Source of the DNA: Candidatus Abzuiibacterium crystallinum | GTDB lineage: Bacteria > Omnitrophota > Omnitrophia > Omnitrophales > Abzuiibacteriaceae | DNA: 61,462 nt | Direction of reading: 5' to 3' | Assembly: GCA_002787155.1 (NCBI GenBank) | Contig: PCVY01000047.1 | Location: 1-61,462 of the forward strand | Shown: positions 43,375 to 59,580 of the stretch, piece after piece | Position numbering within the stretch: position 1 is the stretch's first letter | Layout of the letters: every line of letters begins with the position of its first letter | Translations under genes and position numbers: made by a program | Notes under the pieces: model-generated | Seen by the model: only the letters and a program-made list of their open reading frames with translations | The model's database searches: none | Told to the model about the DNA's origin: nothing

Positions 43375-45156
43375 ATGGACGTTGCAAAAATTAGAAACTT
43401 CTCAATTATCGCCCATATTGACCACGGTAAGTCCACATTAGCCGATCGGTTTCTTTTGCTCACCAAAGCCATCTCTGAAAGAGAATTTCACGCCCAATTC
43501 CTGGATGATATGGATCTGGAGCGTGAGCGCGGCATTACAATCAAATCGCGTGCTGTGAGAATCAATTACAAAGGTTACCAGTTAAATTTTATTGACACGC
43601 CAGGTCATGTCGATTTTACTTACGAAGTCTCGAAGAGTTTAGCCGCATGTGAAGGCGTTATTTTGCTGGTGGATGCCGCACAGGGGATCGAAGCGCAGAC
43701 AATGACTAATTTGCATTTAGCCATGGAGCAAAACCTCACCATCATCCCTGTAATGACAAAAATTGATTTACCAAGCGCAGAGCCGGTAAAAGTCAAAAAT
43801 GAAATCTGCAGCGTCTTATTGATTGATGAGCATGAAATCTTAGCGTGCAGTGCTAAAAGCGGAGAAGGCGTTTCAGGCGTGTTGGATGCCATCATTGAAC
43901 GCATTCCTCAGCCTAAAGGAGATCCTGAAAATCCGCTTCAAGCACTTGTGTTCGACTCAAAATATGATACTTATCGCGGCGTGGTTACGTATTTCAGGGT
44001 GATTGATGGGAAAATAGAATTAGGTAAACCTGTCAAGTTTATGCAGACAAATCAGACCTATCTGGTTGAAAGTCTTGGCGTTTTTACGCCGCACGAAAAA
44101 CCCATTGATCGCCTGGGACCGGGAGAAGTCGGATTTTTTTCAGGCAATATTAAAGAAGTATCCCATGTGCAAGTCGGTGATACGATTACCACCCCGGAAC
44201 GCCCGTGCCAAAAACCACTGCCAGGCTACAAAGAAGTAAAGCCCATGGTGTTTTGCGGCTTATATCCTGTCAACGCTAAAGATTTTATTACACTCAGAGA
44301 AGCGCTTGAGAAATTGAAACTGAACGACTCTTCTTTTTCGTTTGAACCCGAAACTTCTTCCTCGCTTGGGCTGGGATTTAGGAGCGGATTTTTAGGTTTG
44401 CTGCACATGGATATTATTCGAGAACGATTGGAGCGTGAATTTAATTTAGATTTGCTTGTAACGGCCCCTAACGTGGTTTGCCGAATCGTAAAAACCAATC
44501 ACGAAGTTTTGTTTTTAGATAACCCGACTAAAATGCCGCCAATGCAAAATATAGAAGTGATTGAAGAGCCTTACATCAAAGCTCATATTGTGATTCCAGG
44601 CAGTTCGCTGGGTGCTGTTATGCAGCTTTGTCAGGAAAGACGCGGACAGTATTTAAGCACCGAATATATCGATCCAACGCGGGCTATTTTGGTTTACGAT
44701 CTGCCTTTTTCAGAGGTGTTGGTCGATTTTTACGATAAAATTAAATCGATTACCAGCGGCTATGGTTCCTTAAATTATGAATTTATCGGTTATCAACCTT
44801 CCGACATCATTAAAATGGATATTTTGATTAATGGCGATCCGGTCGATTCATTATCCATCATCACACACCGTGACAAATCCTATTACAAAGGCAAAGCCGT
44901 AGCGGAGAAATTAAAGGAAGTGGTACCGCGTCAATTGTTTGAAGTTGTCATTCAGGCTGCGATTGGGTCAAAGATTATTGCAAAATCTGTTGTGAAACCG
45001 CTTGGGAAAAATGTGACAGCTAAATGTTATGGGGGTGATATTACCCGCAAGCGAAAGTTATGGGAGAAGCAGAAAGAGGGAAAGAAAAAAATGAAACGAA
45101 TCGGCAAGATTGATTTGCCTCAAGAGGCTTTTATGTCCATTTTAAAACTCGACTAA
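43375..45156 (+). CDS. lepA: Elongation factor 4 (LepA)
   Basis: LepA is a ribosome-associated GTPase with roles in back-translocation under stress and in ribosome assembly. The 593 residues show G1 AHIDHGKST near 13-21, G2/RGIT near 46, G3 DTPGH near 70, G4 TKID near 124, and the LepA-specific C-terminal domain with HRDKSYYKGK and the AKCYGGDITRKRKLWEKQK motif. It starts 3 bases after rpe and precedes lepB, a common lepA-lepB pairing. Confidence 0.97.
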   Translation: MDVAKIRNFSIIAHIDHGKSTLADRFLLLTKAISEREFHAQFLDDMDLERERGITIKSRAVRINYKGYQLNFIDTPGHVDFTYEVSKSLAACEGVILLVDAAQGIEAQTMTNLHLAMEQNLTIIPVMTKIDLPSAEPVKVKNEICSVLLIDEHEILACSAKSGEGVSGVLDAIIERIPQPKGDPENPLQALVFDSKYDTYRGVVTYFRVIDGKIELGKPVKFMQTNQTYLVESLGVFTPHEKPIDRLGPGEVGFFSGNIKEVSHVQVGDTITTPERPCQKPLPGYKEVKPMVFCGLYPVNAKDFITLREALEKLKLNDSSFSFEPETSSSLGLGFRSGFLGLLHMDIIRERLEREFNLDLLVTAPNVVCRIVKTNHEVLFLDNPTKMPPMQNIEVIEEPYIKAHIVIPGSSLGAVMQLCQERRGQYLSTEYIDPTRAILVYDLPFSEVLVDFYDKIKSITSGYGSLNYEFIGYQPSDIIKMDILINGDPVDSLSIITHRDKSYYKGKAVAEKLKEVVPRQLFEVVIQAAIGSKIIAKSVVKPLGKNVTAKCYGGDITRKRKLWEKQKEGKKKMKRIGKIDLPQEAFMSILKLD

Positions 45157-45163
45157 GGATTTT

Positions 45164-45802
45164 ATGACTATCTATATTCCCGTCATTATTATTGCCATTC
45201 TAATTATTTATCGGCGCACCATTTGGAACGATCTTGTTTTTTTAAAACAAGATCCAAAAGCGTGGACTTTTCACAAGTGGAAAGAGTGGGGCGAACCATT
45301 TGTTGTTGCCGTCATTCTAGCGGTTATTATCCGCACTTTTATCATCGGTCCCTACAAAATCCCAACCGGATCAATGCGGCCGACTTTAATCGAAGGCGAC
45401 CGCATTTTTGTCGAAAAAGTAACATATCGTTTTCATGATATGAAGCGGGGCGATGTCATCGTATTTAAATACCCGCTTGATTCCAAGAAAGATTTTGTTA
45501 AGCGCTTGATTGCATTTGGCGGTGAAGAAGCAAAGATTAAGGACGGACAAGTTTATATCAATGATGTTCTGATAGATAGCAACGAAAGTATCCAGAAAAA
45601 TTATTACTACAATCGCAATGACTGGCAATATGGCAAAGAGGGGATGGCTATCCGAGTGCCGGATGACTCGCTCTTTGTCCTCGGTGATAACAGTGCTCAT
45701 TCGAGCGACAGTCGCAACTGGGGATTTGTGAAGAAACGAGACGTGATTGGAAGAGCGGTTGTCATTTGGTGGCCGCCGAACAGAATCGGAAAAATTCACT
45801 AA
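45164..45802 (+). CDS. lepB: Signal peptidase I
   Basis: The enzyme removes signal peptides from exported proteins at the outer face of the inner membrane. The 212-residue protein has an N-terminal membrane segment, a second one (about 46-63), the catalytic Ser70 in PTGSMRPTL and the general-base Lys113 in FVKRLIAFGG. The conserved GDNSAHSSDSRNWG box lies near 177-190. It starts 7 bases after lepA and is the last gene of this run. Confidence 0.95.
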   Translation: MTIYIPVIIIAILIIYRRTIWNDLVFLKQDPKAWTFHKWKEWGEPFVVAVILAVIIRTFIIGPYKIPTGSMRPTLIEGDRIFVEKVTYRFHDMKRGDVIVFKYPLDSKKDFVKRLIAFGGEEAKIKDGQVYINDVLIDSNESIQKNYYYNRNDWQYGKEGMAIRVPDDSLFVLGDNSAHSSDSRNWGFVKKRDVIGRAVVIWWPPNRIGKIH

Positions 45803-45868
45803 AAATATGAAGAAAAGTACTAAGTTTTTGATTGATTCTGCCGTTATAAACTTACACGGGAATTTTCT

Positions 45869-46489
45869 ATGTTACAACATGAACTGTTTAATGAAAGTCA
45901 AGCTGGTTTACAAGGCAAAAGAGTTACTTCATTCTTTTCAGAGAACAAACTGGTTATTGGCTTTGATAAGGTTATTCTGTTATCCATCGGCTGTCTGATT
46001 CTGTTTGTGCTTGTATACTCATTTGGTTTTGAGCGGGGGCGAAGAGCGGCAGAGCATCACTTTAAGGCTTTAACGGGTAACGTTGAGACCATTCCTTTAA
46101 TGAAGGCGCCACAGCCTACGGTAGCAACCCCAAGTGAAACTTTACCCATTCGCCAGGAAACATTAAGTGATGAAGCTGTTAATCAGCGCAGTGTTGACGC
46201 CATCCGGATGACGATCAAATCAACTGCGCCAGCCGAAATAACCCCCAATACGGGCAAGTACACCATTCAGGTTGCAACCATTTTAAGCCGTGAAAAAGCA
46301 GACAAAGAAATTGACCGGTTAAAACGTAAAGGTTTTGAAGCATTTGTTATTGAGCGGGGACGGTTCTTTGAGGTGTGCATTGGATCATATCCCTCACTCA
46401 CCCAAGCCAAATCTCTTCTGCGGCAATTCCACCACGAAGGCCCGTATTTCGATGCTTTTCTCAGACCAAATCCCAATTATATGGGCTAG
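45869..46489 (+). CDS. SPOR-domain membrane protein
   Basis: The 206-residue protein has a short cytoplasmic N-terminus, one membrane segment (about 33-52), a low-complexity linker, and a C-terminal SPOR domain (about 130-205) beginning KYTIQVATILSREKADKEI. SPOR domains bind denuded peptidoglycan at division septa, so a role in division or wall remodelling is likely. A second SPOR protein lies 1 kb downstream. A TATAAA at 45845-45850 may be the -10 of its own promoter. Confidence 0.82.
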   Translation: MLQHELFNESQAGLQGKRVTSFFSENKLVIGFDKVILLSIGCLILFVLVYSFGFERGRRAAEHHFKALTGNVETIPLMKAPQPTVATPSETLPIRQETLSDEAVNQRSVDAIRMTIKSTAPAEITPNTGKYTIQVATILSREKADKEIDRLKRKGFEAFVIERGRFFEVCIGSYPSLTQAKSLLRQFHHEGPYFDAFLRPNPNYMG

Positions 46490-46595
46490 GTTCTTTCCGT
46501 AAGTTATTTATTTTAAAATAGTTATGTCATTTTTGAGGGAAGATAAGAATTTACTGAAAGTCGTAATTTACCTAGCTAAAATTGATGTTAACCGC

Positions 46596-46601
46596 TATAA
46601 T
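46596..46601 (+). promoter_or_regulatory. Candidate -10 element for the small basic protein gene
   Basis: A perfect TATAAT lies 49 bases before the start codon in the 160-base gap after the SPOR gene. No good -35 is visible at 16-18 bases. The leader carries a near-perfect TAAGGAG ribosome binding site at 46638-46644, among the strongest in the window, suggesting high expression. Confidence 0.4.
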
Positions 46602-46649
46602 AACCACACTTTTTCGGATTGTAATGTTCATTAGTTCTAAGGAGTCATT

Positions 46650-46907
46650 ATGTCGCAACATCCAAGTTTAAGGGTCTCGAGCGTTGGCGCTAAACACCGA
46701 AATGTTTTCAAGAGACATGAAAAAATAAAAAAACTGCAAGAAAACGAAAATTGGTTAGAGCATAAAACTGCTTTTAAATTACCGAAAATTAAATCGGTCA
46801 AAGTGAAGGTTAAGAAAATCAAAGCAGAAAAAGCTGAAGGAGCTGAAGGCGAAGCCACAGCACCGGCAGCGGCTAAACCAGCGGCAGAAGAAAAGAAAGC
46901 CAAGTAA
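46650..46907 (+). CDS. Small basic protein, Chlamydiae/Verrucomicrobia-type family
   Basis: The first 55 residues match my memory of a small basic protein family shared by Chlamydiae, Verrucomicrobia and relatives: MSQHPSLR, a GAKHRNVFKRHEKIKKL stretch, a W..H segment and a FKLPKIKSVKVKVKK ending. It is probably a ribosome- or RNA-associated protein, but its role is not established. Here a 27-residue Ala/Glu/Lys-rich tail extends beyond the usual Lys-rich end. The perfect ribosome binding site fits an abundant product. Confidence 0.8.
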   Translation: MSQHPSLRVSSVGAKHRNVFKRHEKIKKLQENENWLEHKTAFKLPKIKSVKVKVKKIKAEKAEGAEGEATAPAAAKPAAEEKKAK

Positions 46908-46922
46908 CCGGACGGACTAGGT

Positions 46923-47405
46923 GTGAAGGTGAATATTCGGGCGTATCAACCAGAGGATGATGGTGCCATTCAAGGCTTAATTGCGGACATCATGGATAAA
47001 GAATTTCCGCAGACCAAAGCGGCTTATCCCATGGATGATTTAACTCATATTTCCACGGTGTACGGCGGTCCGGGAGATGCTTTTTTTGTAGCGGTTGACC
47101 ACCACCAAATTGTTGGAACGGTTGCCGTCAAACACGAAGATAAAAGGGTGGCGCTTTTGAGACGTATTTTTGTTGCACCAACTCACCGAAACCAAAAGTT
47201 AGGCATCGGTCTCATTGAAAAAGCCATTCAATTCTGTAAAGATAACGGCTATCAGGAACTCGTTTTCAGGACCTCAAGTAAAATGGATCGGGCGATCCGG
47301 CTCTGTCAGAAAAAAAATTTTCAGCAGCGTGCCAGCCTTGAAATTGGCGGATTGGAACTTTTGAAATTCGTGCTTTTCTTAGGGAACGGCGAAGCAAAAT
47401 CATAA
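46923..47405 (+). CDS. GNAT family N-acetyltransferase
   Basis: The 160-residue protein has the GNAT fold. The acetyl-CoA binding motif A region is visible as LLRRIFVAPTHRNQKLGIGLIEKA (about 76-99), with the Q/RxxGxG/A pattern in NQKLGIG, and a later motif B segment RLCQKKNFQQ. The substrate is not predictable. The start is GTG at 46923; a second GTG at 46929 is also possible. It follows the small basic protein gene by 15 bases. Confidence 0.82.
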   Translation: MKVNIRAYQPEDDGAIQGLIADIMDKEFPQTKAAYPMDDLTHISTVYGGPGDAFFVAVDHHQIVGTVAVKHEDKRVALLRRIFVAPTHRNQKLGIGLIEKAIQFCKDNGYQELVFRTSSKMDRAIRLCQKKNFQQRASLEIGGLELLKFVLFLGNGEAKS

Positions 47406-47426
47406 TCAGAAGCAGGTGATTTATTC

Positions 47427-48419
47427 ATGTGGTTTATTTTTAAGAAAAAGAACAGTAATGCTCCCTTAAAAACATTAAACGAGCAGGAAATACAAGAAAA
47501 GTTGTATGGCAGGTACCATCAGAAACAAAAGGCAAGCAATCATTTTGGCACGCTTGGGAGTTCTGATGAGACGTTGACGTTATCCGCTGATAATCAAATT
47601 AATCTGCAAACAAAAAAAGAAAATAAAACACGTCCCGCCAATACGGCTGTTCTTGACTTGCCGAAGGTTGCCAAAGCTGAAACGCCGCCCAGCCATAAAA
47701 CGTATTCAATCCCGTTGGCACCCACTCCCATTAAAACAACCCCAAACCTGTGGGGTTATGTGCGAGATTTGACCAACCGGATTTTTTCGCTCTTCTCGTG
47801 GCGTTATACAGTCGCCGCAATGATTTTGCTTGCCGGCATTGGCTTATTAAGCCTGATTCCTTGGGACAAATTTAAATCCCGTGAAATGCCGCCTCCTGTG
47901 ATTCAGCGTGACCGCGCAGTTCTCAGGACGCCTATCCCGCAAGAAACGCAGACGCCGGCTGTTGTTACCAAAATACCTGCCACTGCGGAAAATCCTGATA
48001 AAAAAGCAACCGCAGAAGAAAGTGCACAGGGAAGTAAGGTAGAAGAAAAAGCACAACAAACTATTTCCACGGAGACCGAAAAACAGGCAATCTCTGAGGC
48101 TCAAGGAAAAAACATGGGCGAACCTCCGGTTTCTGACGTTTCTTCTGCCGCAGCGACTCAGAAATCCTACACCATACAAGTTTGTACTTATGTGCAGGAA
48201 GCAGATGCTAAAATGCTTGTCGAAAAACTGGAGACTGAGAATCTTCCGGCTTTTTATCAAGAATCGGGGAATACTTCAGGCGCCAGCGCAGGCCGGCAGT
48301 TTTACGTTGTGTTTTTGGGAAAAGACAAAGGATATTCTGAAGCAAAAGAACGATTAGCCGCGTTTAAGAAGCTTTCTGTTTCGAAAGATTTTTCCGACGC
48401 ATTCATTCGAAGGTTATAG
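47427..48419 (+). CDS. SPOR-domain membrane protein, second copy
   Basis: The 330-residue protein has a cytoplasmic N-terminus with a short LNEQEIQEKLYGRYH helix, one membrane segment (about 132-148) and a long Thr/Glu/Ala-rich periplasmic linker. A C-terminal SPOR domain (about 248-328) starts KSYTIQVCTYVQEADAKML. The SPOR domain should bind septal peptidoglycan. It differs in length and sequence from the other SPOR protein, so recent duplication is unlikely. It precedes a PilZ gene by 2 bases, linking a wall-binding protein with c-di-GMP signalling. Confidence 0.8.
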   Translation: MWFIFKKKNSNAPLKTLNEQEIQEKLYGRYHQKQKASNHFGTLGSSDETLTLSADNQINLQTKKENKTRPANTAVLDLPKVAKAETPPSHKTYSIPLAPTPIKTTPNLWGYVRDLTNRIFSLFSWRYTVAAMILLAGIGLLSLIPWDKFKSREMPPPVIQRDRAVLRTPIPQETQTPAVVTKIPATAENPDKKATAEESAQGSKVEEKAQQTISTETEKQAISEAQGKNMGEPPVSDVSSAAATQKSYTIQVCTYVQEADAKMLVEKLETENLPAFYQESGNTSGASAGRQFYVVFLGKDKGYSEAKERLAAFKKLSVSKDFSDAFIRRL

Positions 48420-48421
48420 TT

Positions 48422-48775
48422 ATGTGGCAGGGATTTGAAGGGCGTCAATTTCCTCGTATCCAAACCGATTGCCGAATCTACATTACCAAAGATACGCATC
48501 ATCAGCCCATCACGGCACGCACAGAGAATATTGGCGCAGGCGGGATTTGCGTTTTGCTGGATGAACCGCTTCCCAAACTGAGCATGGTCAATGTGAAATT
48601 AGACATCGATGACGGCGGACAACCCATTTCATGTGTGGCGCAGGTAGTTTGGACAGTTGAGCGGAAGGAATTTAATGCCAAAAAGAAACTGCACGATATC
48701 GGTATGTCCTTCATTGATCTAGACGACGCTTCTAAACGACGAATTGAAGAAATTATCAAGACAACAACCAATTAA
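48422..48775 (+). CDS. PilZ domain protein (predicted c-di-GMP receptor)
   Basis: A 117-residue stand-alone PilZ domain. The c-di-GMP-binding RxxxR motif is Arg8-Arg12 (RQFPR). The second motif reads NIGAGG at 36-41, matching [D/N]xSxxG except that Ser is Gly, so affinity may be altered. A beta-barrel core ending in GMSFIDLDDASKRRI is typical. It lies 2 bases after the SPOR gene and 11 bases before yajQ, implying cotranscription. Confidence 0.85.
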   Translation: MWQGFEGRQFPRIQTDCRIYITKDTHHQPITARTENIGAGGICVLLDEPLPKLSMVNVKLDIDDGGQPISCVAQVVWTVERKEFNAKKKLHDIGMSFIDLDDASKRRIEEIIKTTTN

Positions 48776-48786
48776 TTCAGCGCACC

Positions 48787-49287
48787 ATGCCCAGTGAATG
48801 CTCCTTTGATATTGTTTCCGAAGTCAATCTCCAAGAAATTGATAATGCTGTCAATCAAGCGATGAAAGAGTTGAAAAATCGTTTTGACTTTAAAGGGAGC
48901 AAGAGCGAAATCACCTTTAATCGGAATGAAAAAAAGCTATCAATATTGGCCGATGACGAATTAAAGTTGAAGAGTTTGAAAGATGTTCTCAGCACGCGCT
49001 TGGCTAAACGGTCAGTTTCAATGAAAGTACTGCAATACGGAAGTGAAGAAAAAGCTTTGGACGGCATGGTCCGCCAGAGCGCTGAGATCATTCAGGGGAT
49101 TCCTCAGGAGAAGGCGAAAGAACTGGTTCGCATGATCAAAGACATGAAGTTAAAAGTCCAGCCAAGTATCCAAGGCGAAAAAATTCGTGTTAGCGGTAAG
49201 AATAAAGATGATTTACAGGTCGTTATGCAAATGGTTAAAAGCGCTAATTTGTCTATTGCAATTCAGTTTGATAACTTAAGAAGCTAA
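48787..49287 (+). CDS. yajQ: YajQ family nucleotide-binding protein
   Basis: YajQ proteins are small double-RRM-like proteins; members in several bacteria bind c-di-GMP and act in gene regulation, and others bind GTP or tRNA. The 166 residues match the family over their whole length: the SFDIVSEVNLQEIDNAVNQA start, KNRFDFKGSKSEI, and the C-terminal KLKVQPSIQGEKIRVSGKNKDDLQ segment. It sits between two PilZ genes, which supports a c-di-GMP link here. Confidence 0.95.
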   Translation: MPSECSFDIVSEVNLQEIDNAVNQAMKELKNRFDFKGSKSEITFNRNEKKLSILADDELKLKSLKDVLSTRLAKRSVSMKVLQYGSEEKALDGMVRQSAEIIQGIPQEKAKELVRMIKDMKLKVQPSIQGEKIRVSGKNKDDLQVVMQMVKSANLSIAIQFDNLRS

Positions 49288-49561
49288 ATTTTTTTTATCT
49301 TATTTATGTATAATAATTATATTCATAATAATTTTAAATAATATAATTTATTATTTTATCTGTAAAAATGAGATCGGAAGGCAATAAAAAAAAGTTTTAT
49401 AAAACCTCTTATTAACTAAAAAAAACCGCTCATCTATTGTATTACCTGAAGGCTATGCTATACTCAAAATAACAGCAGCAACAAAAAGTTTTTGAAAATC
49501 ATATCAATCTATCATCACAATTGCCGTTACATTAACAGCAAGGTTAGAGGAGAAACCAAAC
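49288..49561. other. AT-rich intergenic spacer with promoter
   Basis: This 274-base gap is extremely AT-rich in its first 90 bases, with alternating AATAAT/ATTATA runs, then contains A-tracts at about 49386-49393 and 49420-49426. Such DNA is likely curved or bound by nucleoid proteins. A promoter lies at 49437-49464. No stable GC hairpin terminator and no RNA gene are visible. Confidence 0.5.
49437..49464 (+). promoter_or_regulatory. Promoter of the second PilZ gene
   Basis: TTGTAT (49437-49442), a 16-base spacer and TATACT (49459-49464) preceded by TGC (extended -10). The predicted start near 49471 gives a leader of about 90 bases with a GAGGAGA ribosome binding site. The AT-rich upstream DNA could act as an UP element or a nucleoid-protein site. 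Confidence 0.6.
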
Positions 49562-49954
49562 ATGGATAAAGAACGAAGGCGCTTTAAACGGTTCGATGCT
49601 TTTATGAGTGTGAAGTGCGGTTTACCAAAAGCAACCGAAAAAGAATTAGCGCTCAGTCTCACGAAAGATATTTCTCGTGAAGGTTTGTGTGTTAACTCTA
49701 ATACCAGCTTCAGTCACGGCAGTGTTGTGAATCTTGAAATTAATCTCCCGGATGACCCGCGTCCTATCCGTTCTTCGGGCAAAGTAGTTTGGTCGAAAAT
49801 ATCGAGCCAAGAAGAAGGGATTGATTACGGTATTCAGTTTGTCAACATTGACCCGATTGATAAATTTAGGGTGCTGGATTTTGCCTACAATCATTGGCTT
49901 GAAACCAAAGTCAATGACTTTGCTGATCCTGAAGATGTTACAAAATTGAATTAA
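49562..49954 (+). CDS. PilZ domain protein, second (predicted c-di-GMP receptor)
   Basis: A 130-residue PilZ domain protein. Both ligand motifs are canonical: RxxxR at Arg6-Arg10 (RRFKR) and DISREG at 36-41. The domain ends with DYGIQFVNIDPIDKFRVLDF. It is probably cytoplasmic and should bind c-di-GMP more reliably than the first copy. GAGGAG precedes the start. It has its own promoter and is followed after 109 bases by the cNMP/patatin fusion gene. Confidence 0.87.
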   Translation: MDKERRRFKRFDAFMSVKCGLPKATEKELALSLTKDISREGLCVNSNTSFSHGSVVNLEINLPDDPRPIRSSGKVVWSKISSQEEGIDYGIQFVNIDPIDKFRVLDFAYNHWLETKVNDFADPEDVTKLN

Positions 49955-50063
49955 GCCTTCACTAACCGTTTCCATCAGGTAAGTTTTCCACCTTATTTAG
50001 TTATATTTCTACGTTAAACAGCCGATAATCATATCAAGATAACTAATTGATCTTGAGGATGAA

Positions 50064-52127
50064 ATGGCTTGGTTTAATTTCTTACGAAAAACTCAGACAA
50101 AAACAGATTACGAAATTAGTCTGTTCCCCATATTTTCTGAATTAACACCCGCCGAAATTAACGTTGTTCAATCAAAAGTTCGTTTGGTTGAATTTAAAAA
50201 AGGCGAGACGATTTATAATAAGGGAGAAGAATCGGACGGATTTTATTTGATCCTAAGAGGCCGCATTGTTATTTTGAAAAGCGACCGGCAGGTCATTAAC
50301 CATCTTCATGCAGGCGACCATTTTGGCGAAACATCGCTCTTGGCAGGACGTCCGCACAGTGCCACAACCGAGGCTCAAAATGATTCAATCCTGCTTAAAA
50401 TTGCCAAAAAAGATTTCCTTCTCCTCTTAAAAGAAATTCCGTCGCTCAGTTTAAACATTAGTCGAACGTTAGGAAGTCGTTTGACAGGCACCCTGGATGA
50501 CCGGACGTTATCAGGCGAGTCAAAAATCATCACTTTTTATCATTCTGTGCCAGGGATCGGAAACTCCACTTTTGCAATCCACCTAGCGGCTGCTCTGAAA
50601 CGGGAAACGCAAAAAAAAGTTATTTTCCTGGATTTTACTTCTCTGTCAGATAAACGAAACGGTAATCAGCCTTTTAAACGTGCCAAGCATTTTCAATTAT
50701 CCGATTTTGAAGTAACTAATACCCACAAAATCGAACAAGCCATTGTGAAAGACCAGGCTAATTTTCATGTTTTCAAATTGGGCGACGAGCGAATCGAAAA
50801 AGACATCGAAAAAGATTTACCGCGGCTCATTTCATATTTTTTAAGCCATTACCATTTCATTTTAATTGACTTGCCCGTCATTGTGAATCCGCTGGTCCGA
50901 AAAGCCATTCAGCAGGCGGACATTCTTTATTTTCTGATCGATGAAGATTTGAGAGGCGTCCGAGAGGTTATCGAAAAGATTAAAGAATTTAGATTGTCTT
51001 TTGGATTTACGGAAGATCAATTTAGGTTAATCTTGAGAGAACGGAAACAGCAGCCAAAGCTGCAGGCTTTCTACGATGAATACTCAGATGAGACCTTGCC
51101 GATATTTGCAACCTTGCCCGAAACCGAACTTTTTGATCAAAAATCTTTCACGGAGCAAAAACTGGAACAGACCGATGATGAACAGTTTTATTCCAAAACA
51201 ATGCGTCATCTGGCGCGTGAGTTAGCAGGAAAGCTGGTGGGGCTGGCTTTGGGCAGCGGGGCTGCTTTTGGTTATGCCCATGTTGGCGTGTTAAAAGTTT
51301 TGGAAGAAGAGGGGATTAAAGTTGATATGATTTCGGGCTCTAGCATCGGTGCAATTATCGGCGGCATGTGGGCAGCGGGTATACCGGCAAAGCAGTTGAT
51401 TGAAATTCTTTCAACGCTTGACCGAAAAACAACTTTTTTCAAACTATTCGGTTTTAGAGATTTATCAGCGGCTCATAAAGGATTTTTCAAAGGCGACCAA
51501 GTAGTCCGGTTCTTAAAACACTACTTAAAAGGCATTACGTTTCGTGATCTTAAAATCCCTACTAAAATTATCGCAACCAATTTGGCAACGGGTGCGCCGA
51601 TATTGTTTGATGACGGCCCGCTTGTGACAGCTATTCGAGCCAGCATTTCAATTCCCGGAATTTTCAGGCCGCTCGCGATTGACAATAAATATTTAATTGA
51701 TGGCGGGATTGCCGAACCGCTGCCGGTCCAGGTTTTGAATCGGTTTGGTGCTAAGAAGATTATCGCCGTCAACGTCCTCCAATCACCTGATGATCACTAC
51801 CGCCGGAGCGTTCGAATTGAAGAAAAAAATAAAAAACTGGATGAAAGTATGAAAAAGCGAAATGCCCTCATCCGTACTTTTTATCACGAGCGTACCAAAT
51901 TTATTAATAGACAAAGCGCTAACATTTTTAACGTTTTGATGAAGACCATTCAATTCATGGAATTTATCATGGCGAATGCCGCTGCCGAGCAAGCTGATAT
52001 TACCCTTAATCCGGTTGTAACGGATGCGCACTGGGCGGAATTTTTTACGCATCGGAAATTTATTCACCGCGGAGAAGAAGAGGCGCGCCGCTGGCTGGAT
52101 GACATTAAGGAACTTGTTAATGAATAA
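50064..52127 (+). CDS. Cyclic-nucleotide-binding / MinD-like / patatin phospholipase fusion
   Basis: The 687-residue protein joins three parts. Residues about 20-140 form a cNMP-binding (CAP-type) domain with the GDHFGETSLLAGRPHSAT loop. Residues about 153-360 look like a MinD/CpaE-type P-loop domain, but the expected deviant Walker A (KGGxGKT) reads VPGIGNST (162-169), without either lysine. Residues 391-570 form a patatin-like lipase: oxyanion GSGAAFG, nucleophile Ser427 in GSSIG, and Asp546 in DGG. The lipase site looks intact, the ATPase site dead. The nearest known type is bacterial NTE/RssA-like patatins with cNMP domains. No membrane segment is evident. Confidence 0.88.
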   Translation: MAWFNFLRKTQTKTDYEISLFPIFSELTPAEINVVQSKVRLVEFKKGETIYNKGEESDGFYLILRGRIVILKSDRQVINHLHAGDHFGETSLLAGRPHSATTEAQNDSILLKIAKKDFLLLLKEIPSLSLNISRTLGSRLTGTLDDRTLSGESKIITFYHSVPGIGNSTFAIHLAAALKRETQKKVIFLDFTSLSDKRNGNQPFKRAKHFQLSDFEVTNTHKIEQAIVKDQANFHVFKLGDERIEKDIEKDLPRLISYFLSHYHFILIDLPVIVNPLVRKAIQQADILYFLIDEDLRGVREVIEKIKEFRLSFGFTEDQFRLILRERKQQPKLQAFYDEYSDETLPIFATLPETELFDQKSFTEQKLEQTDDEQFYSKTMRHLARELAGKLVGLALGSGAAFGYAHVGVLKVLEEEGIKVDMISGSSIGAIIGGMWAAGIPAKQLIEILSTLDRKTTFFKLFGFRDLSAAHKGFFKGDQVVRFLKHYLKGITFRDLKIPTKIIATNLATGAPILFDDGPLVTAIRASISIPGIFRPLAIDNKYLIDGGIAEPLPVQVLNRFGAKKIIAVNVLQSPDDHYRRSVRIEEKNKKLDESMKKRNALIRTFYHERTKFINRQSANIFNVLMKTIQFMEFIMANAAAEQADITLNPVVTDAHWAEFFTHRKFIHRGEEEARRWLDDIKELVNE

Positions 52128-52146
52128 AAAGTTAAAATTAGGTGGT

Positions 52147-52175
52147 TTGACGGACGAAAATCACTATGTTAGACT
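52147..52175 (+). promoter_or_regulatory. Promoter of the lipid-use operon
   Basis: TTGACG (52147-52152), a 17-base spacer and TAGACT (52170-52175) lie in the 89-base gap before the thiolase gene. The predicted start near 52182 leaves about 35 bases of leader with an AAAGG ribosome binding sequence. Confidence 0.55.
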
Positions 52176-52216
52176 TTGACCGTGGCAACCCCTAAAAACA
52201 AGAAAGGTTCATATTT

Positions 52217-53407
52217 ATGAAATCAGTTGTCATTGTAGACGGGGTTAGAACTCCGCAAGGAATACTCGGCGGTGCGCTGAAGTCATTTACCAACCAAAAA
52301 CTGGGTGAAATTGTTACCCGCGCTCTCCTCGAACGCACAAAAGTCAAACCGGAGCAGATCGAAGAAGTTATATTCGGCTGCGTTGGACAAGCCAGCGATG
52401 CGGCCAATGTGGCCCGTGTTATTAGCCTCATGGCAGGAATCCCGCACTCGGTGACAGCCTTTACGGTTGCGCGGAATTGTGCTTCCGGGCTTCAGGCCAT
52501 TGTGTCAGCTTATCAAATGATTACGGGCGGCGAAGCGGATATCATTATCGCCGGCGGTGCGGAATGCATGTCGATGGCGCCCTATGTGAATCGCGATCTT
52601 CGGTTCGGTAAAAAATTAAGACATTCCACCATGATAGATTCGTTATGGGAAGGGTTAACAGACCCTGTCTGTAAGATGATCATGGGAGAAACAGCAGAAA
52701 ATTTAGTGGATGAGTTTAAAATTTCACGAAAAGATCAAGATGCATTTGCGATGATTTCTCATCAACGGGCTTTTCGAGCGACACGGGAAGGTAAATTTAA
52801 AGATGAAATTATCAAAGTCATAATTCCAAAAAAAGCAGCCGGAAAAGAAATGCCGCCCGAGACATTCACCGAAGACGAGGGTATTAACATGGCATTAACT
52901 GAGCAGATATTATCGCAATACCCGACGATCTTCAAAGAAAATGGATCTGTCACGCCGGGGAATTCATGTCCCATTTCGGATGGCGCAGCGGCTGTGTTGG
53001 TGATGAGTGAAGAAAAAGCAAAAGAACTGGGATTAAAACCGCTTGGTTATATTCGGAGTTACGCCTTTGCAGGTGTTGAACCGGAACGGATGGGAATCGG
53101 GCCTACCTGCGCGGTCCCTAAGGCTTTAAAAAAAGCAGGTTTATCACTCAAAGATATCCAGTTAATGGAGTTGAACGAGGCGTTTGCCGCGCAATTTATC
53201 GCTTGCGAGCAAGTAATGAAGTTTGATCGGAACATCGCGAACGTCAACGGCGGCGCCATTGCCTTGGGCCACCCAGTAGGGGCCACAGGCGCACGAATCA
53301 CGGTGACGCTTTTGCACGAAATGAAACGGCGTAATTTAAATTTAGGACTGGCAACCATGTGTGTTGGCGGCGGACAAGGCGGCGCAATTATTATGGAGAG
53401 GAAGTAA
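52217..53407 (+). CDS. Acetyl-CoA C-acyltransferase (thiolase)
   Basis: Thiolases cleave 3-ketoacyl-CoA in beta-oxidation or condense two acetyl-CoA. The 396 residues show all catalytic elements: acylated Cys88 in NCASGLQ, His352 in GHPVGATGAR and Cys382 in CVGGGQGG, and the NEAFA motif near 318. Length fits the degradative/acetoacetyl-CoA group (AtoB/FadA-like); chain-length preference cannot be read. It is the first gene of a run with matching 3-hydroxyacyl-CoA dehydrogenase and enoyl-CoA hydratase. Confidence 0.94.
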   Translation: MKSVVIVDGVRTPQGILGGALKSFTNQKLGEIVTRALLERTKVKPEQIEEVIFGCVGQASDAANVARVISLMAGIPHSVTAFTVARNCASGLQAIVSAYQMITGGEADIIIAGGAECMSMAPYVNRDLRFGKKLRHSTMIDSLWEGLTDPVCKMIMGETAENLVDEFKISRKDQDAFAMISHQRAFRATREGKFKDEIIKVIIPKKAAGKEMPPETFTEDEGINMALTEQILSQYPTIFKENGSVTPGNSCPISDGAAAVLVMSEEKAKELGLKPLGYIRSYAFAGVEPERMGIGPTCAVPKALKKAGLSLKDIQLMELNEAFAAQFIACEQVMKFDRNIANVNGGAIALGHPVGATGARITVTLLHEMKRRNLNLGLATMCVGGGQGGAIIMERK

Positions 53408-53409
53408 TC

Positions 53410-54627
53410 ATGTATATCTACAAGGCGGGCGTGATTGGCGCCGGTGCGATGGGGGCAGAAATTGCACAGGTCATTTCCTATGCAGGATTGCCGGTGGTTT
53501 TAAAAGATGTGAACCAAGAATTGGTTGACAAGGGAATTGCTAAGATACGGGCTATTTATGACGGGCGCGTCAAAAAAGGAAAAATGTCGCCGGAAGATGC
53601 CGAAAAAAAAATTGCGCTTGTTATTCCATCCACAGACAACAATAGTTTTAAAGATGTGGACATCGTCATTGAAGCTGTGCCCGAGAAAATGGCCATCAAG
53701 CAAAAGGTTTTTCAAGAAGTTCAGGATATCGTACCTGAAACGGCCATTTTAGCGACAAACACCTCAGCGTTGTCGATTTCTGAATTGGGATCGGCGACGA
53801 AACGGCCTGGCCGAGTCGTGGGCATGCATTTTTTCTATCCTGCGCATGTTATGAAGCTGATCGAAGTCATTCCCGGCTTAGCCACCGAAGAAGAGGTGGC
53901 GGCAGATGTTATGACATTCTCTGAAACATTGCGCAAGATTCCCGTCAAAGTAAATGAGTGCGCTGGTTTCTTAGTCAACCGGCTCTTAATGCCCTATCTC
54001 AACGAAGCTGCTTTCTGTCTACAAGAAGGGGCAGCAACTGTAGAAGAGATCGATCAAGCCGCTGTCGCGTTCGGTTTACCAATGGGTCCATTTACATTGG
54101 TAGATAATTTGGGCTTGGACATTTGCTATGATGTTGTGCAGGTCTTGCTCAATTCATACGGCAGCCGGATGAAACCTGCGGAATTGTGGATGCATTTCTA
54201 TGAAGCCAAACGATTTGGCCGGAAAACAGGAGGCGGTTTTTACCCATATGAAGATACGGATACAAGCAAGATCAAAGCGCTCATTTCAAAAGCACAGGCA
54301 ACATCGCCTAAGAAAAATACAAAATTCAGTATTGAGCGATTAATCTATCCAATGGTCAATGAAGCGATCATGTGTGTCGAAGAGCATGTTTCGACAGCGG
54401 CTGATGTCGATTTAGCCATGCTGGCAGGTGTAGGCTTCCCACAAGAGAAAGAGGGAATTCTGCATTATGCGGATGCGACCGGTTTAGACAAAGTGTTGGC
54501 CGAGTTGATGGCCCTACATGAAACTCATGGTGATCGATTCTGGCCTGCAACAAGTTTGCGCCGCTATGTTGCTGCCAAATTTTTGGGTAAAAAAGCAAGC
54601 CGCGGTTTCTTTGAATACAGCACATAA
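53410..54627 (+). CDS. 3-hydroxyacyl-CoA dehydrogenase
   Basis: The enzyme oxidises L-3-hydroxyacyl-CoA with NAD. The 405 residues contain the Rossmann motif GVIGAGAMGAEIAQV near 8-22, the IEAVPEK and FYPAHVMKLIEVI segments with the catalytic His, and two C-terminal 3HCDH helical domains, the layout of the dehydrogenase half of FadB-type proteins without the hydratase part. The separate hydratase gene follows. The ATG at 53410, after GGAGAGGAAG, is preferred over a frame opening at 53359 inside the thiolase gene. Confidence 0.93.
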   Translation: MYIYKAGVIGAGAMGAEIAQVISYAGLPVVLKDVNQELVDKGIAKIRAIYDGRVKKGKMSPEDAEKKIALVIPSTDNNSFKDVDIVIEAVPEKMAIKQKVFQEVQDIVPETAILATNTSALSISELGSATKRPGRVVGMHFFYPAHVMKLIEVIPGLATEEEVAADVMTFSETLRKIPVKVNECAGFLVNRLLMPYLNEAAFCLQEGAATVEEIDQAAVAFGLPMGPFTLVDNLGLDICYDVVQVLLNSYGSRMKPAELWMHFYEAKRFGRKTGGGFYPYEDTDTSKIKALISKAQATSPKKNTKFSIERLIYPMVNEAIMCVEEHVSTAADVDLAMLAGVGFPQEKEGILHYADATGLDKVLAELMALHETHGDRFWPATSLRRYVAAKFLGKKASRGFFEYST

Positions 54628-54641
54628 CCAAAAGGTGATTT

Positions 54642-55430
54642 ATGGGGGATGACGGAAAAAAAGTAAAATTCAAGCTGGATGAAAATGTGGGTATCATTAC
54701 GATCGATAGACCGCCTGTCAATGCGTTAAGCAGTGAAGTGATGCAGCAACTCAATGAAACGCTTGAAAAATGTTTAAGCGATTCAAATGTTAAAGTGATG
54801 GTTATTACGGGCGCCGGATCGTTTGCATTTGTGGCAGGTGCCGATGTAAAAGAAATTAATGGCATTTCGGATGCCAAAGAAGGTGCTCGATTAGCAAGTG
54901 AAGGGCAGGCTATTTTAAAGAAGATTGAAAGTTCAAAAAAACCGGTAATCGCTGCTATTAATGCGGTTTGCCTGGGCGGCGGGAACGAATTGGCGCTGGC
55001 TTGTCATCTCCGCATCGCATCAGACCGAGCAAAATTTGGCCAGCCCGAGATTAATTTAGGCATCATTCCCGGATTTGGCGGGACGCAAAGACTCACAAGG
55101 CTTTGCGGGATTGCTAAGGCCCGCGAGCTTTGCTTAACGGGTGATATGGTAACCGCACAAGAAGCGCTTCGAATCGGGCTGATAAATAAAATGGTACCGG
55201 ACAGTGAGGTGCTAAAACAATCTGTCGGGTTAGCAAAGAAAATTGCAAAGAAAGGACAGCGAGCAGTTCAACTGGTCCAGCAAGTGATTACGGAGGGATT
55301 TTCAAAAACCTTGGATGAGGGCTTGGCATTGGAAGCACAGTTGTTTGGCGAGGTTTGCACCACCCAAGATAAAAAAGAAGGTGTACAAGCATTTTTAGAA
55401 AAAAGACAACCTAATTTTACTGATTCCTAA
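54642..55430 (+). CDS. Enoyl-CoA hydratase/isomerase (crotonase family)
   Basis: It should hydrate trans-2-enoyl-CoA to L-3-hydroxyacyl-CoA. The 262 residues show the oxyanion-hole segments (FVAGADVKEI near 64-73 and CLGGGNELALA near 110-120). Both catalytic glutamates of true hydratases are present, Glu116 and Glu136 in QPEINLGIIPGFGGTQRL, twenty residues apart as in the rat enzyme. It lies 14 bases after the dehydrogenase gene and completes a hydratase-dehydrogenase-thiolase set. Confidence 0.94.
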   Translation: MGDDGKKVKFKLDENVGIITIDRPPVNALSSEVMQQLNETLEKCLSDSNVKVMVITGAGSFAFVAGADVKEINGISDAKEGARLASEGQAILKKIESSKKPVIAAINAVCLGGGNELALACHLRIASDRAKFGQPEINLGIIPGFGGTQRLTRLCGIAKARELCLTGDMVTAQEALRIGLINKMVPDSEVLKQSVGLAKKIAKKGQRAVQLVQQVITEGFSKTLDEGLALEAQLFGEVCTTQDKKEGVQAFLEKRQPNFTDS

Positions 55431-55441
55431 GAAAAGGCAGG

Positions 55442-56098
55442 GTGTTTTACCGCATGAGGCAACAAGCAAAATTTGAAATTTTTTTCATCATTTGTTTTGC
55501 AATGATCAGTTTAGGAGCCGGGCAAGAATTTCAATGGCCTTGGCAAAAAAAGCAGGCAAAACAAGAAGAAAAGAAATTACTGGTTCAGCATACCGCACGA
55601 ACCCTATCGGATCAAAATGCGCAGCCGGAGGAACCAAAAGAAAAAGAGTCTGTTCGTTCTGAGAAAGAAGAAACAGCCGTACAGGTAAATCCGATCGCAG
55701 CAGCGCGGCCTGTCGCGGCAATCCCAAAGCCGCCGCCCACACGACCCATTTTTGATTCGCCTGAACAGGAAATCAGTAAAATTCAGGACGACTTAAGTCA
55801 TTTAACGAAACAGTCACAAGCCATTCAAGCTCAGGGGATAGCAGACCGGCAAAAGCTTCAATCCATCATGGAGAAAGTGCGGATTCAGCAGAAATTGCTT
55901 AAGAACTTGCAGCCGCCGACTGCGCAATTAAAAACACCAACCAGCAGCGCTGAGGAAGTATTGCGCAACACAAAAGTAAGATTGATTGCGGAGGATGTGA
56001 AAAAAACGCAGGCAGATTTGGAGCGAGTCGCAACGATCACACCAATCCGAACCAAAAACGTTCAACCCATCGTAGCAAAAAAGATTCAAACACACTAG
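55442..56098 (+). CDS. Secreted or membrane-anchored coiled-coil protein, unknown
   Basis: I do not recognise this 218-residue protein. A hydrophobic N-terminus (about 10-28) is a signal peptide or anchor. A WPWQKKQ segment, a charged Pro/Glu/Lys-rich part (about 38-105) and a predicted coiled coil (about 105-150) follow, with a basic C-terminus. The start is GTG at 55442, with AAAAGG upstream; ATG 55454 is an alternative. Its position between the hydratase and acyl-CoA synthetase genes suggests an envelope partner for lipid handling, but there is no direct evidence. Confidence 0.65.
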   Translation: MFYRMRQQAKFEIFFIICFAMISLGAGQEFQWPWQKKQAKQEEKKLLVQHTARTLSDQNAQPEEPKEKESVRSEKEETAVQVNPIAAARPVAAIPKPPPTRPIFDSPEQEISKIQDDLSHLTKQSQAIQAQGIADRQKLQSIMEKVRIQQKLLKNLQPPTAQLKTPTSSAEEVLRNTKVRLIAEDVKKTQADLERVATITPIRTKNVQPIVAKKIQTH

Positions 56099-56113
56099 CG
56101 TTATCAGAATGCG

Positions 56114-57919
56114 ATGACAATCTTCCCAAGTGTCCCCCGCATGTTTCTGGCGAAAGCCAATCATTTAGCGAAACAAACTATCTTTAAATATAAACATCAA
56201 GGCCAATACCAAGATATCACCTGGTTTGAAGCGAGGGAACAAGTTGCCTTAGCCGCGTTAGGATTAAAGACGTTAGGAATTGGAGCAGGTGAGCGGGTCG
56301 CTATTTTGTCTGAAAATCGACCCGAATGGGCGATGGCCGATTTGGCAATTCTAGGGCTAGGTGCAAGCGATGTTCCGATTTACGCGACTTCCTCACCCGA
56401 AGAGGTAGCTTATGTCGTTCGTCATGCTGCTGCGAAAGCTATTTTTGTATCTAATGACGAACAATTACAAAAAATTATCCCGCAATTAAGCGAACTTCCC
56501 AGCTTGAAAACAATTATTATCTTTGAGGATGATGCCAATCGAGCGCCTCAAGTCTTTTCTTGGCTTGCTTTGCAGCAATTGGTCAAAGTGAGTGCTTCAG
56601 AAGCATTAAATGCTTTTGAGGATGAAGTCAAAAATGTGAAGTGTGATGATTTGGCCACCATTATTTACACGTCCGGAACAACCGGTCCGCCTAAAGGCGT
56701 GATGCTCACACATCAAAATTTCTTGATTAATTGTGAAGACGCAAAAGAAGCCATCCGATTGGGCCGAAATGACCAAACCTTGTCGTTTCTGCCCCTAAGC
56801 CATGTCTTTGAACGAATGGCCGGTTTTTATTTTCCTTTGATGGTAGGAGCGCCGATCGCATATGCAGAGAGTATGAACACGGTTCCGGAAAACTTGCTAG
56901 AAGTCAAGCCGACCATGGCGTGTGCCGTACCGCGCTTTTACGAAAAAATTTATCAAAAAATCATGACATCCGTCGAGCAGAGCACGCCTATCAAGAAAAA
57001 ACTGATCAAATGGGCACTCACTGTTGGCTATGCCACCATTCCGTATCGCCTGAAGCGGTTAACGATGCCATCTTGGCTTTATTGTCAATATCAGATAGCC
57101 AGATTACTTGTTTTCAAGAAATTGAAGAAAAGTCTGGGAGGGCGCCTCACCCAATTTATTTCGGGAGGAGCGGCACTCCCCCGGTATCTGGGCGAATTTT
57201 TCTACGCAGCTGGCATCATGATTTTGGAGGGCTATGGATTGACCGAGACATCACCCGTTATTGCAGTGAATAGAGAGCAGCAATTAAAATTTGGGACTGT
57301 CGGGATACCGTTTCAGCATGTTGATGTCCGGATTGATTCGGAAACTAAAGAAATCTGTGTCCGCGGTCCCAGTGTCATGAGAGGTTATTACAAAAATGAA
57401 GCGGCAACGCAAGAAGTTATCCGCGATGGCTGGTTCCACACCGGAGACATTGGCTGCTTGGATGAAGAGGGTTTTCTTACCATTACTGACCGGATGAAAG
57501 ATATCATTGTCACCTCAGGCGGCAAAAATATTTCGCCTCAAAACATTGAGAATACCATTTTAAAAAGTTCTTTTATTCAGCAAATGGTGGTGCTTGGGGA
57601 TGGCCGCAACTATCTTGTTGCGCTCATTGTCCCTGATTTTACGGCCGTACAAGATTATTTGAAATTGGCACACTTATCTAAAGAACAAATCATTAAAGAG
57701 GAGAGGGTCAACAAACTGATCCAAGAAGAGATAACACGGCTCACCAAGACTTCTGCCGGTTACGAACAGATAAAATATTTTAGATTACTGCTTTCTGAAT
57801 TCACACAAACGAGCGGCGAATTGACGCCCACTCTTAAAGTAAAACGAAAAATAGTTCAGAAGAAATATGCGTCTTTAATTGATGAGATGTACCAGACGGG
57901 CGCACAATGGAAATCGTGA
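56114..57919 (+). CDS. Long-chain acyl-CoA synthetase (AMP-binding family)
   Basis: The enzyme activates fatty acids to acyl-CoA through an acyl-AMP. The 601 residues belong to the COG1022-type long-chain branch: an A3 phosphate loop YTSGTTGPPKG near 190, the FLPLSHVFERMAG segment, GYGLTETSP near 375, and the A7/A8 HTGDIG and DRMKDIIVTSGGKNISPQ motifs. It may be membrane-associated. It provides the entry step for the beta-oxidation enzymes encoded upstream. The stop overlaps the ATG of the lipase gene. Confidence 0.93.
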   Translation: MTIFPSVPRMFLAKANHLAKQTIFKYKHQGQYQDITWFEAREQVALAALGLKTLGIGAGERVAILSENRPEWAMADLAILGLGASDVPIYATSSPEEVAYVVRHAAAKAIFVSNDEQLQKIIPQLSELPSLKTIIIFEDDANRAPQVFSWLALQQLVKVSASEALNAFEDEVKNVKCDDLATIIYTSGTTGPPKGVMLTHQNFLINCEDAKEAIRLGRNDQTLSFLPLSHVFERMAGFYFPLMVGAPIAYAESMNTVPENLLEVKPTMACAVPRFYEKIYQKIMTSVEQSTPIKKKLIKWALTVGYATIPYRLKRLTMPSWLYCQYQIARLLVFKKLKKSLGGRLTQFISGGAALPRYLGEFFYAAGIMILEGYGLTETSPVIAVNREQQLKFGTVGIPFQHVDVRIDSETKEICVRGPSVMRGYYKNEAATQEVIRDGWFHTGDIGCLDEEGFLTITDRMKDIIVTSGGKNISPQNIENTILKSSFIQQMVVLGDGRNYLVALIVPDFTAVQDYLKLAHLSKEQIIKEERVNKLIQEEITRLTKTSAGYEQIKYFRLLLSEFTQTSGELTPTLKVKRKIVQKKYASLIDEMYQTGAQWKS

Positions 57920-58776
57920 TGGGAAAGCGAGAAGGATTTTTTAATGCGCCTGACGGAACCGAGTTGTTTTACCAAACTTGGGAAAGAGATGCCGAATATG
58001 CCTGTTTGGTGTTTCATGGGTTTGGCGAACATTCCGGCCGTTACGCTCGATTGGTCAGTGCGCTTTCTGACCTTCCCATTTCATATTACGCCATGGATGT
58101 GCGCGGCCAAGGACGATCAGGCGGTGAACGTGTTTATGTGGAATCATTTTCGCAATTTATCGAAGATGCGCAATGTTTCCTGGATTATTTAACTGCCGAC
58201 ACTGAATTCAAACGGAAAAAACTGATTTTGTTTGGTCATAGCCTGGGCGGCGCAATTGCGCTACAATGGTTAAGTCAGAAAGCCAATCCTTGGATAGGTT
58301 TTGTTGCAACATCACCATGTTTTCAAGTCTATGGCATTTCATGGACCAAGCCGGCCAGAGGCTTGGTAAGGAAACTTAACCAAATATATCCGCATGCGGT
58401 GATAACAAATCCCGTGAAACCACGATTTTTATTTAAAAATGAGCAGCTGATGCGCGACTATTTAAAAGACCCATTGATTCAAAGGAAAATTACGATTCAC
58501 ATGGCGGATGAAATTATACGGGCTTGTGAATCCATTCAGTCTATGTCTTTCAATCTCAATGTACCGATGTTTTTTCTGGCCAGCGGGAATGATCGAATCG
58601 TTTCTTTGTCAGCGACACGCCATGTTTATGAAAAGACAGCGGCGCCGATTAAACGTCTATATATTTATCCGGAGCTATACCACGAAATTTTAAATGAAGA
58701 ACAAAATAATGAGGTCGTGAGAGATCTGAAACAATGCTTTCAAACAATTTTAGGAGGTGGTTATGAAAACAATTAA
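57919..58776 (+). CDS. Alpha/beta hydrolase, monoacylglycerol lipase-like
   Basis: The roughly 285-residue protein matches the monoacylglycerol lipase/lysophospholipase group. It has the HGFGEHSGRY oxyanion segment near 32-41, MDVRGQGRSGG, nucleophile Ser in GHSLGG near 109, an Asp in the SGNDRIVS loop and a late His in LYHEILNE. It should release fatty acids from monoacylglycerols or lysophospholipids, feeding the acyl-CoA synthetase encoded just before it. The start at 57919 overlaps that gene's stop (TGATG); ATG 57907 is an in-frame alternative. Confidence 0.88.
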   Translation: MGKREGFFNAPDGTELFYQTWERDAEYACLVFHGFGEHSGRYARLVSALSDLPISYYAMDVRGQGRSGGERVYVESFSQFIEDAQCFLDYLTADTEFKRKKLILFGHSLGGAIALQWLSQKANPWIGFVATSPCFQVYGISWTKPARGLVRKLNQIYPHAVITNPVKPRFLFKNEQLMRDYLKDPLIQRKITIHMADEIIRACESIQSMSFNLNVPMFFLASGNDRIVSLSATRHVYEKTAAPIKRLYIYPELYHEILNEEQNNEVVRDLKQCFQTILGGGYENN

Positions 58777-58900
58777 AGCGCTGACACTTTGCGTATTAGC
58801 ACTCATGATTTTGTCTGCCTGCGGGGAAACCGTACGGGGAATCGGCCGCGACATGTCGCGTATTGCGCATGGAACAAAAACTATTTTTGTTAGCGAGTAA
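58763..58900 (+). CDS. Entericidin-like 45-residue lipoprotein
   Basis: A short gene overlapping the end of the lipase gene by 14 bases. GGAGG lies just before its ATG. The product has a signal peptide with lipobox LSAC (lipidated Cys20) and a mature part of 26 residues starting CGETVRGIGRDM. That start resembles the TVxGxGkD pattern of entericidin A/B lipoproteins. Entericidins are tiny lipoproteins linked to envelope stress and lysis. The mature end (HGTKTIFVSE) is not typical, so the match is partial. Confidence 0.7.
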   Translation: MKTIKALTLCVLALMILSACGETVRGIGRDMSRIAHGTKTIFVSE

Positions 58901-58914
58901 TAAGTCACAGGACC

Positions 58915-59568: not shown

Positions 59569-59580
59569 TAAAGGTGTTTT

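Follow-up and report, generated by a model that had tools for sequence, protein, structure and literature searches.

A CNB-MinD-like-patatin protein of Omnitrophota with a degenerate P-loop and a conserved fatty-acid oxidation neighborhood

One gene in the window (the whole 61,462-nucleotide stretch of Candidatus Abzuiibacterium crystallinum DNA that was analyzed) codes for a 687-residue protein uniting a CRP-like cyclic-nucleotide-binding (CNB) barrel, a MinD/CpaE-like domain lacking both P-loop lysines and a patatin domain with an unchanged catalytic dyad, an architecture that is conserved across the Omnitrophota and encoded in a conserved operon (Table 1). On balance, and with modest confidence, we read it as an intracellular patatin phospholipase feeding β-oxidation, in which the CNB sensor is non-canonical and a pseudo-ATPase domain provides the coupling. 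Under this proposal, the patatin serine phospholipase would act on membrane phospholipids to release fatty acids (or lysolipids), and the freed fatty acids would pass to the adjacently encoded acyl-CoA ligase and β-oxidation enzymes. The activity of the lipase would be set by the N-terminal unit, namely the CNB barrel, which is probably no longer responsive to cAMP, and the MinD/CpaE-descended domain on which it is stacked and which in the window's lineage would serve as a folded coupling or dimerization module without ATP turnover; the resulting conformational state would reach the patatin domain via a conserved linker helix.

Domain architecture and distribution

The Pfam models cNMP_binding (residues 42-123, 5e-20), AAA_31 (153-310, 1e-7) and Patatin (394-558, 2e-35) all match the protein above their curated cut-offs, AAA_31 with 32.4 bits where 27 are required, and thus bear out a sequence-only reading that had proposed this three-domain fusion in exactly this plus-strand frame. 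A GAGGA ribosome-binding-like motif lies just 5′ of the ATG, no competing long frame was found on the minus strand across 50064-52127, and a promoter and terminator scan came out near shuffled expectation. Full-length orthologs, one per genome and 37-59% identical, occur in 34 of 39 related genomes, with pieces in three more, and a full-length ortholog is present in about 93 of the 145 sampled Omnitrophota genomes; the nearest relatives from named genomes belong to Candidatus Omnitrophota MAGs (59% identity). Given this distribution, the co-occurrence of the three domains is far beyond chance. Several Omnitrophota families (f12, f15, f17, f22, f24, f35, f45) show only a patatin of 300-370 residues that matches this family, without the CNB and MinD-like domains, which might reflect either domain loss or an ancestral stand-alone paralog. 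In one related genome (G033, contig C31:18889-20881) the CNB domain is encoded in one frame and the MinD-like and patatin domains in another that abuts it, either because the gene is split or because of a frameshift in sequencing.

Patatins catalyze with a dyad of Ser and Asp rather than with a triad. The intact lipase triad claimed by the sequence-only reading is hence better described as an intact dyad, comprised of Ser427 of the GxSxG motif and Asp546, both unchanged in all 91 orthologs. The domain retrieves PlpD (5fya) in Foldseek searches (E 2.7e-18, TM 0.85 by target), and lipase or phospholipase activity is predicted. It scores 142.7 bits against the RssA/YlbK-type model PRK10279, far below the 272-bit cut-off of the RssA equivalog NF007623.

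Table 1. Features of the CNB-MinD-like-patatin gene and its neighbors (window coordinates)
Feature	Position	Strand	Basis or remark
PilZ, YajQ and PilZ genes, upstream	48422-49954	+	Conserved as a block only within the window's order
cNMP / MinD-like / patatin gene, 687 aa	50064-52127	+	ORF; full-length orthologs
CRP-like CNB barrel, residues 42-123	50187-50432	+	PF00027 5e-20; Foldseek to CRP and PKA-R structures
His98 codon, at the cAMP phosphate-binding Arg position (PKA Arg209)	50355-50357	+	His in 90/91 orthologs
Predicted MinD/CpaE-like SIMIBI domain, residues about 153-390	50520-51233	+	AAA_31, AlphaFold2, Foldseek
Degenerate P-loop VPGIGNST, residues 162-169	50547-50570	+	Val162 at the signature Lys position, Asn167 at the Walker Lys position
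Asp190 codon, retained, following strand 2 in the MinD-like domain	50631-50633	+	Ortholog alignment
Asp269 codon, retained, Walker B position (ILIDLP)	50868-50870	+	Ortholog alignment
Linker helix FYSKTMRHLARELAGK, MinD-like domain to patatin	51186-51233	+	Model helix 375-388
Patatin phospholipase domain, residues 391-687	51234-52124	+	PF01734 2e-35; Foldseek PlpD 5fya
Ser427 codon, nucleophile of GSSIG	51342-51344	+	Invariant, 91/91 orthologs
Asp546 codon of DGG	51699-51701	+	Invariant, 91/91 orthologs
Thiolase and 3-hydroxyacyl-CoA dehydrogenase, immediately downstream	52217-54627	+	TIGR01930 470 bits, PRK05808 375 bits
Enoyl-CoA hydratase (crotonase)	54642-55430	+	Conserved next in line
Small gene inside the cassette, Pro- and Lys-rich, partly coiled-coil-like	55442-56098	+	Relatives in the same place in L005, L036, L038
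Long-chain acyl-CoA ligase	56114-57919	+	Adjacency conserved
α/β-hydrolase, lysophospholipase/monoglyceride-lipase type	57907-58776	+	Domain matches

The MinD-like domain and its P-loop

The MinD/CpaE layout that had been read from the sequence is upheld by structure prediction: an AlphaFold2 model of residues 140-392, built with 22 homologs (pLDDT 81, pTM 0.84), places residues 153-390 in the SIMIBI (ParA/MinD) fold. The best PDB match of this model in Foldseek is 3ea0, a Chlorobium ParA family ATPase (E 2.5e-10, TM about 0.7), followed by MinD, FleN/FlhG, Soj, BcsQ and the nitrogenase Fe protein; the ortholog-family profile likewise matches 3ea0 (2.7e-18) and a Geobacter CpaE (2e-23). Mean pairwise identity across the orthologs is 25% in this domain against 43% in the cNMP and 44% in the patatin domain, while core residues of the fold are kept, viz., Asp286 (98%), Tyr376 (97%), Pro352 (94%) and Leu178 (91%). 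This faster drift with a retained core would fit a structural role.

The P-loop VPGIGNST indeed lacks both lysines, as had been noted from the sequence, with Asn167 in place of the Walker A lysine and Val162 in place of the signature (deviant) lysine. As GxGxST, Asp190 and Asp269 are still present, the window protein reads as an intermediate, having lost the lysines and retained the rest of the site. Close homologs from the same order carry a normal Walker A, which the sequence-only reading had named as a finding that would speak against it, so that the dead P-loop is not family-wide. Across the 91 orthologs the residue at the Walker lysine position is K in 22, R in 16, S in 16, M in 11 and another in the remainder, and the signature position has K in three, with both lysines found together in a single protein (L012). 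A strict G-K-[ST] pattern is present in 16 of the 89 Omnitrophota orthologs; carriers in the window's own order include L010, L012, L014, L019 and L020, and the same-order loops read GIGKTT, NMGKTT, GIGKTS, AIGKTT and, in the protein with both lysines, KEGVGKTT. On an ortholog tree built without the middle domain, which cannot tell gain from loss, this trait needs at least six changes. With 16 of 89 proteins bearing the motif and this number of changes, loss of the P-loop looks recurrent, a derived state rather than a property of the family. Since several re-creations of a full P-loop are unlikely, we infer that GK[ST] was ancestral and was lost repeatedly among the Omnitrophota orthologs. The mode of decay differs by clade and includes GRT (K to R), GSST (K to S/G) and erosion of the whole loop, the last being found in most of the window's order, with the domain itself retained throughout; in two Chloroflexota relatives (L057, L074) the P-loop segment is deleted and the architecture persists.

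These patterns bear on whether nucleotide still matters to the domain. Asp269 is kept in all 16 GK[ST] proteins as against 43 of the 73 others, and a comparison of independent pairs, of which there are too few for a verdict, points in the same direction for the Walker Lys-Asp269 link. Given that 16 of 89 orthologs keep GK[ST], all of them with Asp269, nucleotide binding may still be relevant in those lineages. One could go further and suppose that the MinD-like domain of the window protein itself binds ATP without the lysines, in the manner of TadZ and CpaE, and that ATP-dependent dimerization or membrane attachment places or switches the lipase. We hold this to be doubtful, if worth serious consideration. 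The persistence of GxGxST and both aspartates in the window protein and the canonical GKT of some ortholog clades argue for it, as do altered P-loops elsewhere: TadZ, with an atypical MinD domain and Walker A, is reported to bind ATP for dimerization (PMC13170226), the Liberibacter CpaE loop is KGGVGSS (PMC8513845), and those of 3ea0, the closest structure, and the Geobacter CpaE are KGGDGGSC and SGGMGATT. However, TadZ/CpaE-type proteins retain the signature lysine or some other compensation, whereas the window protein has neither lysine, and the architecture endures despite erosion of the loop in most of the order and its deletion in the Chloroflexota relatives. We prefer the pseudo-ATPase coupling reading, in which ATPase activity would have been lost, because the lipase dyad is invariant while the middle domain drifts, its loop erodes and the core of its fold stays.

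The CNB domain, its ligand and the gene neighborhood

The sequence-only reading had also called the cNMP domain intact, which is correct for the fold and incorrect for the ligand-binding residues, which are largely lost. In the canonical motif FGE[LIV]AL...[PV]R the Arg makes the key phosphate contact (PMC2246266). His98 replaces it in the window protein, in a register that agrees with a phmmer alignment to PKG, and His is present in 90 of 91 orthologs. The Gly position that co-evolves with this Arg is Ser57, with Gly in just four of 91, and Glu89, present in the window protein, is kept in 47 of 91. The search for cyclases covered class I in the window's genome and class III in 39 genomes: neither class was found in the window's genome (94.9% complete), and class III enzymes are present in 16 of the 39 related genomes, with none detected in the other 23. 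Given His98, Ser57 and the missing class I and III cyclases, cAMP appears an unlikely ligand. The CNB fold with its Pfam match, the presence of Glu89 and the class III cyclases of some relatives would be expected of a cAMP- or cGMP-gated phospholipase, as the sequence-only reading had implied, but the residue replacements, together with retention of the gene in genomes without a detected class III cyclase, make such gating quite improbable. Because the near-invariant His98 sits where CooA has its heme-coordinating His (PMC2246266), a non-nucleotide (heme or gas) or nucleoside ligand can be considered as the gate of the phospholipase, with the MinD-derived domain as a former ATP switch turned mechanical coupler. 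Trypanosomatid PKA, which has lost the same Arg, binds nucleosides (PMC10959531). We regard this scenario as rather unlikely; if true, the Omnitrophota family would show stages leading from a MinD-type ATPase to an NTE-like lipase linker domain. Elsewhere in the window's genome, on contig C10, a 2707-residue open frame (L117) has several cNMP domains, two of which, unlike that of the window protein, retain the phosphate-binding Arg (PRTATV, ERTATV).

The strongest neighbor of the gene is the fatty-acid oxidation cassette of thiolase, dehydrogenase, crotonase and ligase, members of which lie directly 3′ of the orthologs across most of the order and also in deep lineages (L041, L043, L051, L096). 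The sequence-only reading had pointed instead to the PilZ and YajQ genes, and the two PilZ genes and YajQ are present as described but conserved next to the lipase gene in the window's order only. A biosynthetic role would likewise be compatible with the conserved operon. With its listed GTG start, the dehydrogenase gene (53359-54627, plus strand) shares 49 bases with the thiolase gene; because the dehydrogenase match sets in about 18 residues after that GTG, an internal ATG is probably the true start. With eight GGDEF matches in the genome, c-di-GMP is likely available as the signal for the PilZ and YajQ proteins; adjacency alone ties it to the patatin protein. One GGDEF domain is encoded within the window at 6021-6542 on the minus strand.

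The PADLOC models for Pycsar TIR effectors match the CNB domain (2e-15) and those for phospholipase effectors the patatin domain (2e-10). These are domain-level matches only, and an anti-phage effector of the Pycsar or CBASS type, destroying the membrane upon a cyclic-nucleotide alarm, is scarcely credible here: the neighbors of the gene include no nucleotide cyclase, the family is a vertically inherited, single-copy and phylum-wide one in a metabolic operon, and the CNB ligand residues are lost. We rejected this reading on the metabolic operon and the missing neighboring cyclase.

Comparison with NTE, CpaE/TadZ and other patatins

The closest parallel in overall layout is the NTE family (PNPLA6/7, SWS, yeast NTE1), which shares with the window protein CNB, a P-loop-like domain, a linker helix and a patatin domain with GxSxG and DG[GA] motifs. 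For the P-loop-like domain of NTE (neuropathy target esterase) Pfam has the model NTE_Ploop (PF24179), and in one alphaproteobacterial order 57 of 61 genomes encode cNMP-patatin proteins with this domain between CNB and patatin; the bacterial versions aligned here lack a Walker A, as does the window protein. A patatin also occupies the C-terminus (858-1158) of a 1162-residue frame from Labrys sp. (L112), behind a long N-terminal part. It is quite plausible, if somewhat short of probable, that the window protein is the bacterial counterpart of NTE, both going back to one ancient cNMP/P-loop/patatin fusion in which the Omnitrophota middle domain stayed more MinD-like. Consistent with this, the R-x-x-AR-x-x-x motif of the linker helix recurs in Chloroflexota and NTE-like proteins, a profile-profile comparison (hhalign) of the family with NTE_Ploop aligns P-loop on P-loop (E 2e-4, probability 46%), and a tree with all cNMP-patatins as one clade is not rejected (p-AU 0.58), its fit exceeding that of the free quick tree by 4.3 log units. 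On the other side, a larger profile lowers the hhalign probability to 22%, so that the profile comparison is at best suggestive, PF24179 finds no match in ten Omnitrophota genomes including the window's or in 25 genomes of other relatives, the NTE-like patatins fall apart on a long branch in the free patatin tree, and the fusion may have arisen twice. A search of the PDB with the family profile at E 1e-15 gave 66 matches, and the best 60 of them include no solved NTE structure. The protein is hence an NTE-like phospholipase by layout, with its membership in the NTE family unproven. In place of the three CNB domains and the transmembrane segment of eukaryotic NTE (PMC6995513), the window protein has a single CNB domain and no evident hydrophobic anchor, and its middle domain, in contrast to that of the NTE_Ploop proteins, is still recognizably MinD-like.

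Our literature searches brought up no work in which patatin occurs together with MinD and CNB, PNPLA6 with a P-loop, or Omnitrophota with a relevant patatin, and we found no paper explaining the role of the P-loop-like domain between the CNB domains and the lipase of NTE. The Omnitrophota family combines the NTE layout with a plainly MinD-like middle domain, and among close relatives within it some P-loops are intact and others broken. It therefore offers a natural test of whether control of the lipase ever needed nucleotide binding, and the same series could reveal what a MinD-like domain does once its nucleotide site is lost. The labels 'cAMP-regulated' and 'ATPase', which automatic annotation would readily give these proteins, are also corrected.

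CpaE and TadZ, the type to which the best structure and profile matches belong, resemble the window protein in placing a MinD-like domain, its Walker A altered, behind a sensory-type domain. The window protein differs from them in the replacement of the receiver domain by CNB, the fusion to a lipase, the loss of both lysines and the lack of a Tad pilus context, there being no Tad genes among the neighbors at 43375-60453. The RssA/YlbK-type patatins and PlpD (5fya) share the patatin domain and are without the N-terminal CNB and MinD-like domains. Nearest to the Omnitrophota group outside the phylum in the patatin tree are the two Chloroflexota CNB-patatins (support 81), which share the CNB domain with the window protein and have a short Rossmann-like middle region; unlike it, they have deleted the P-loop segment and kept the Arg of the phosphate cassette.
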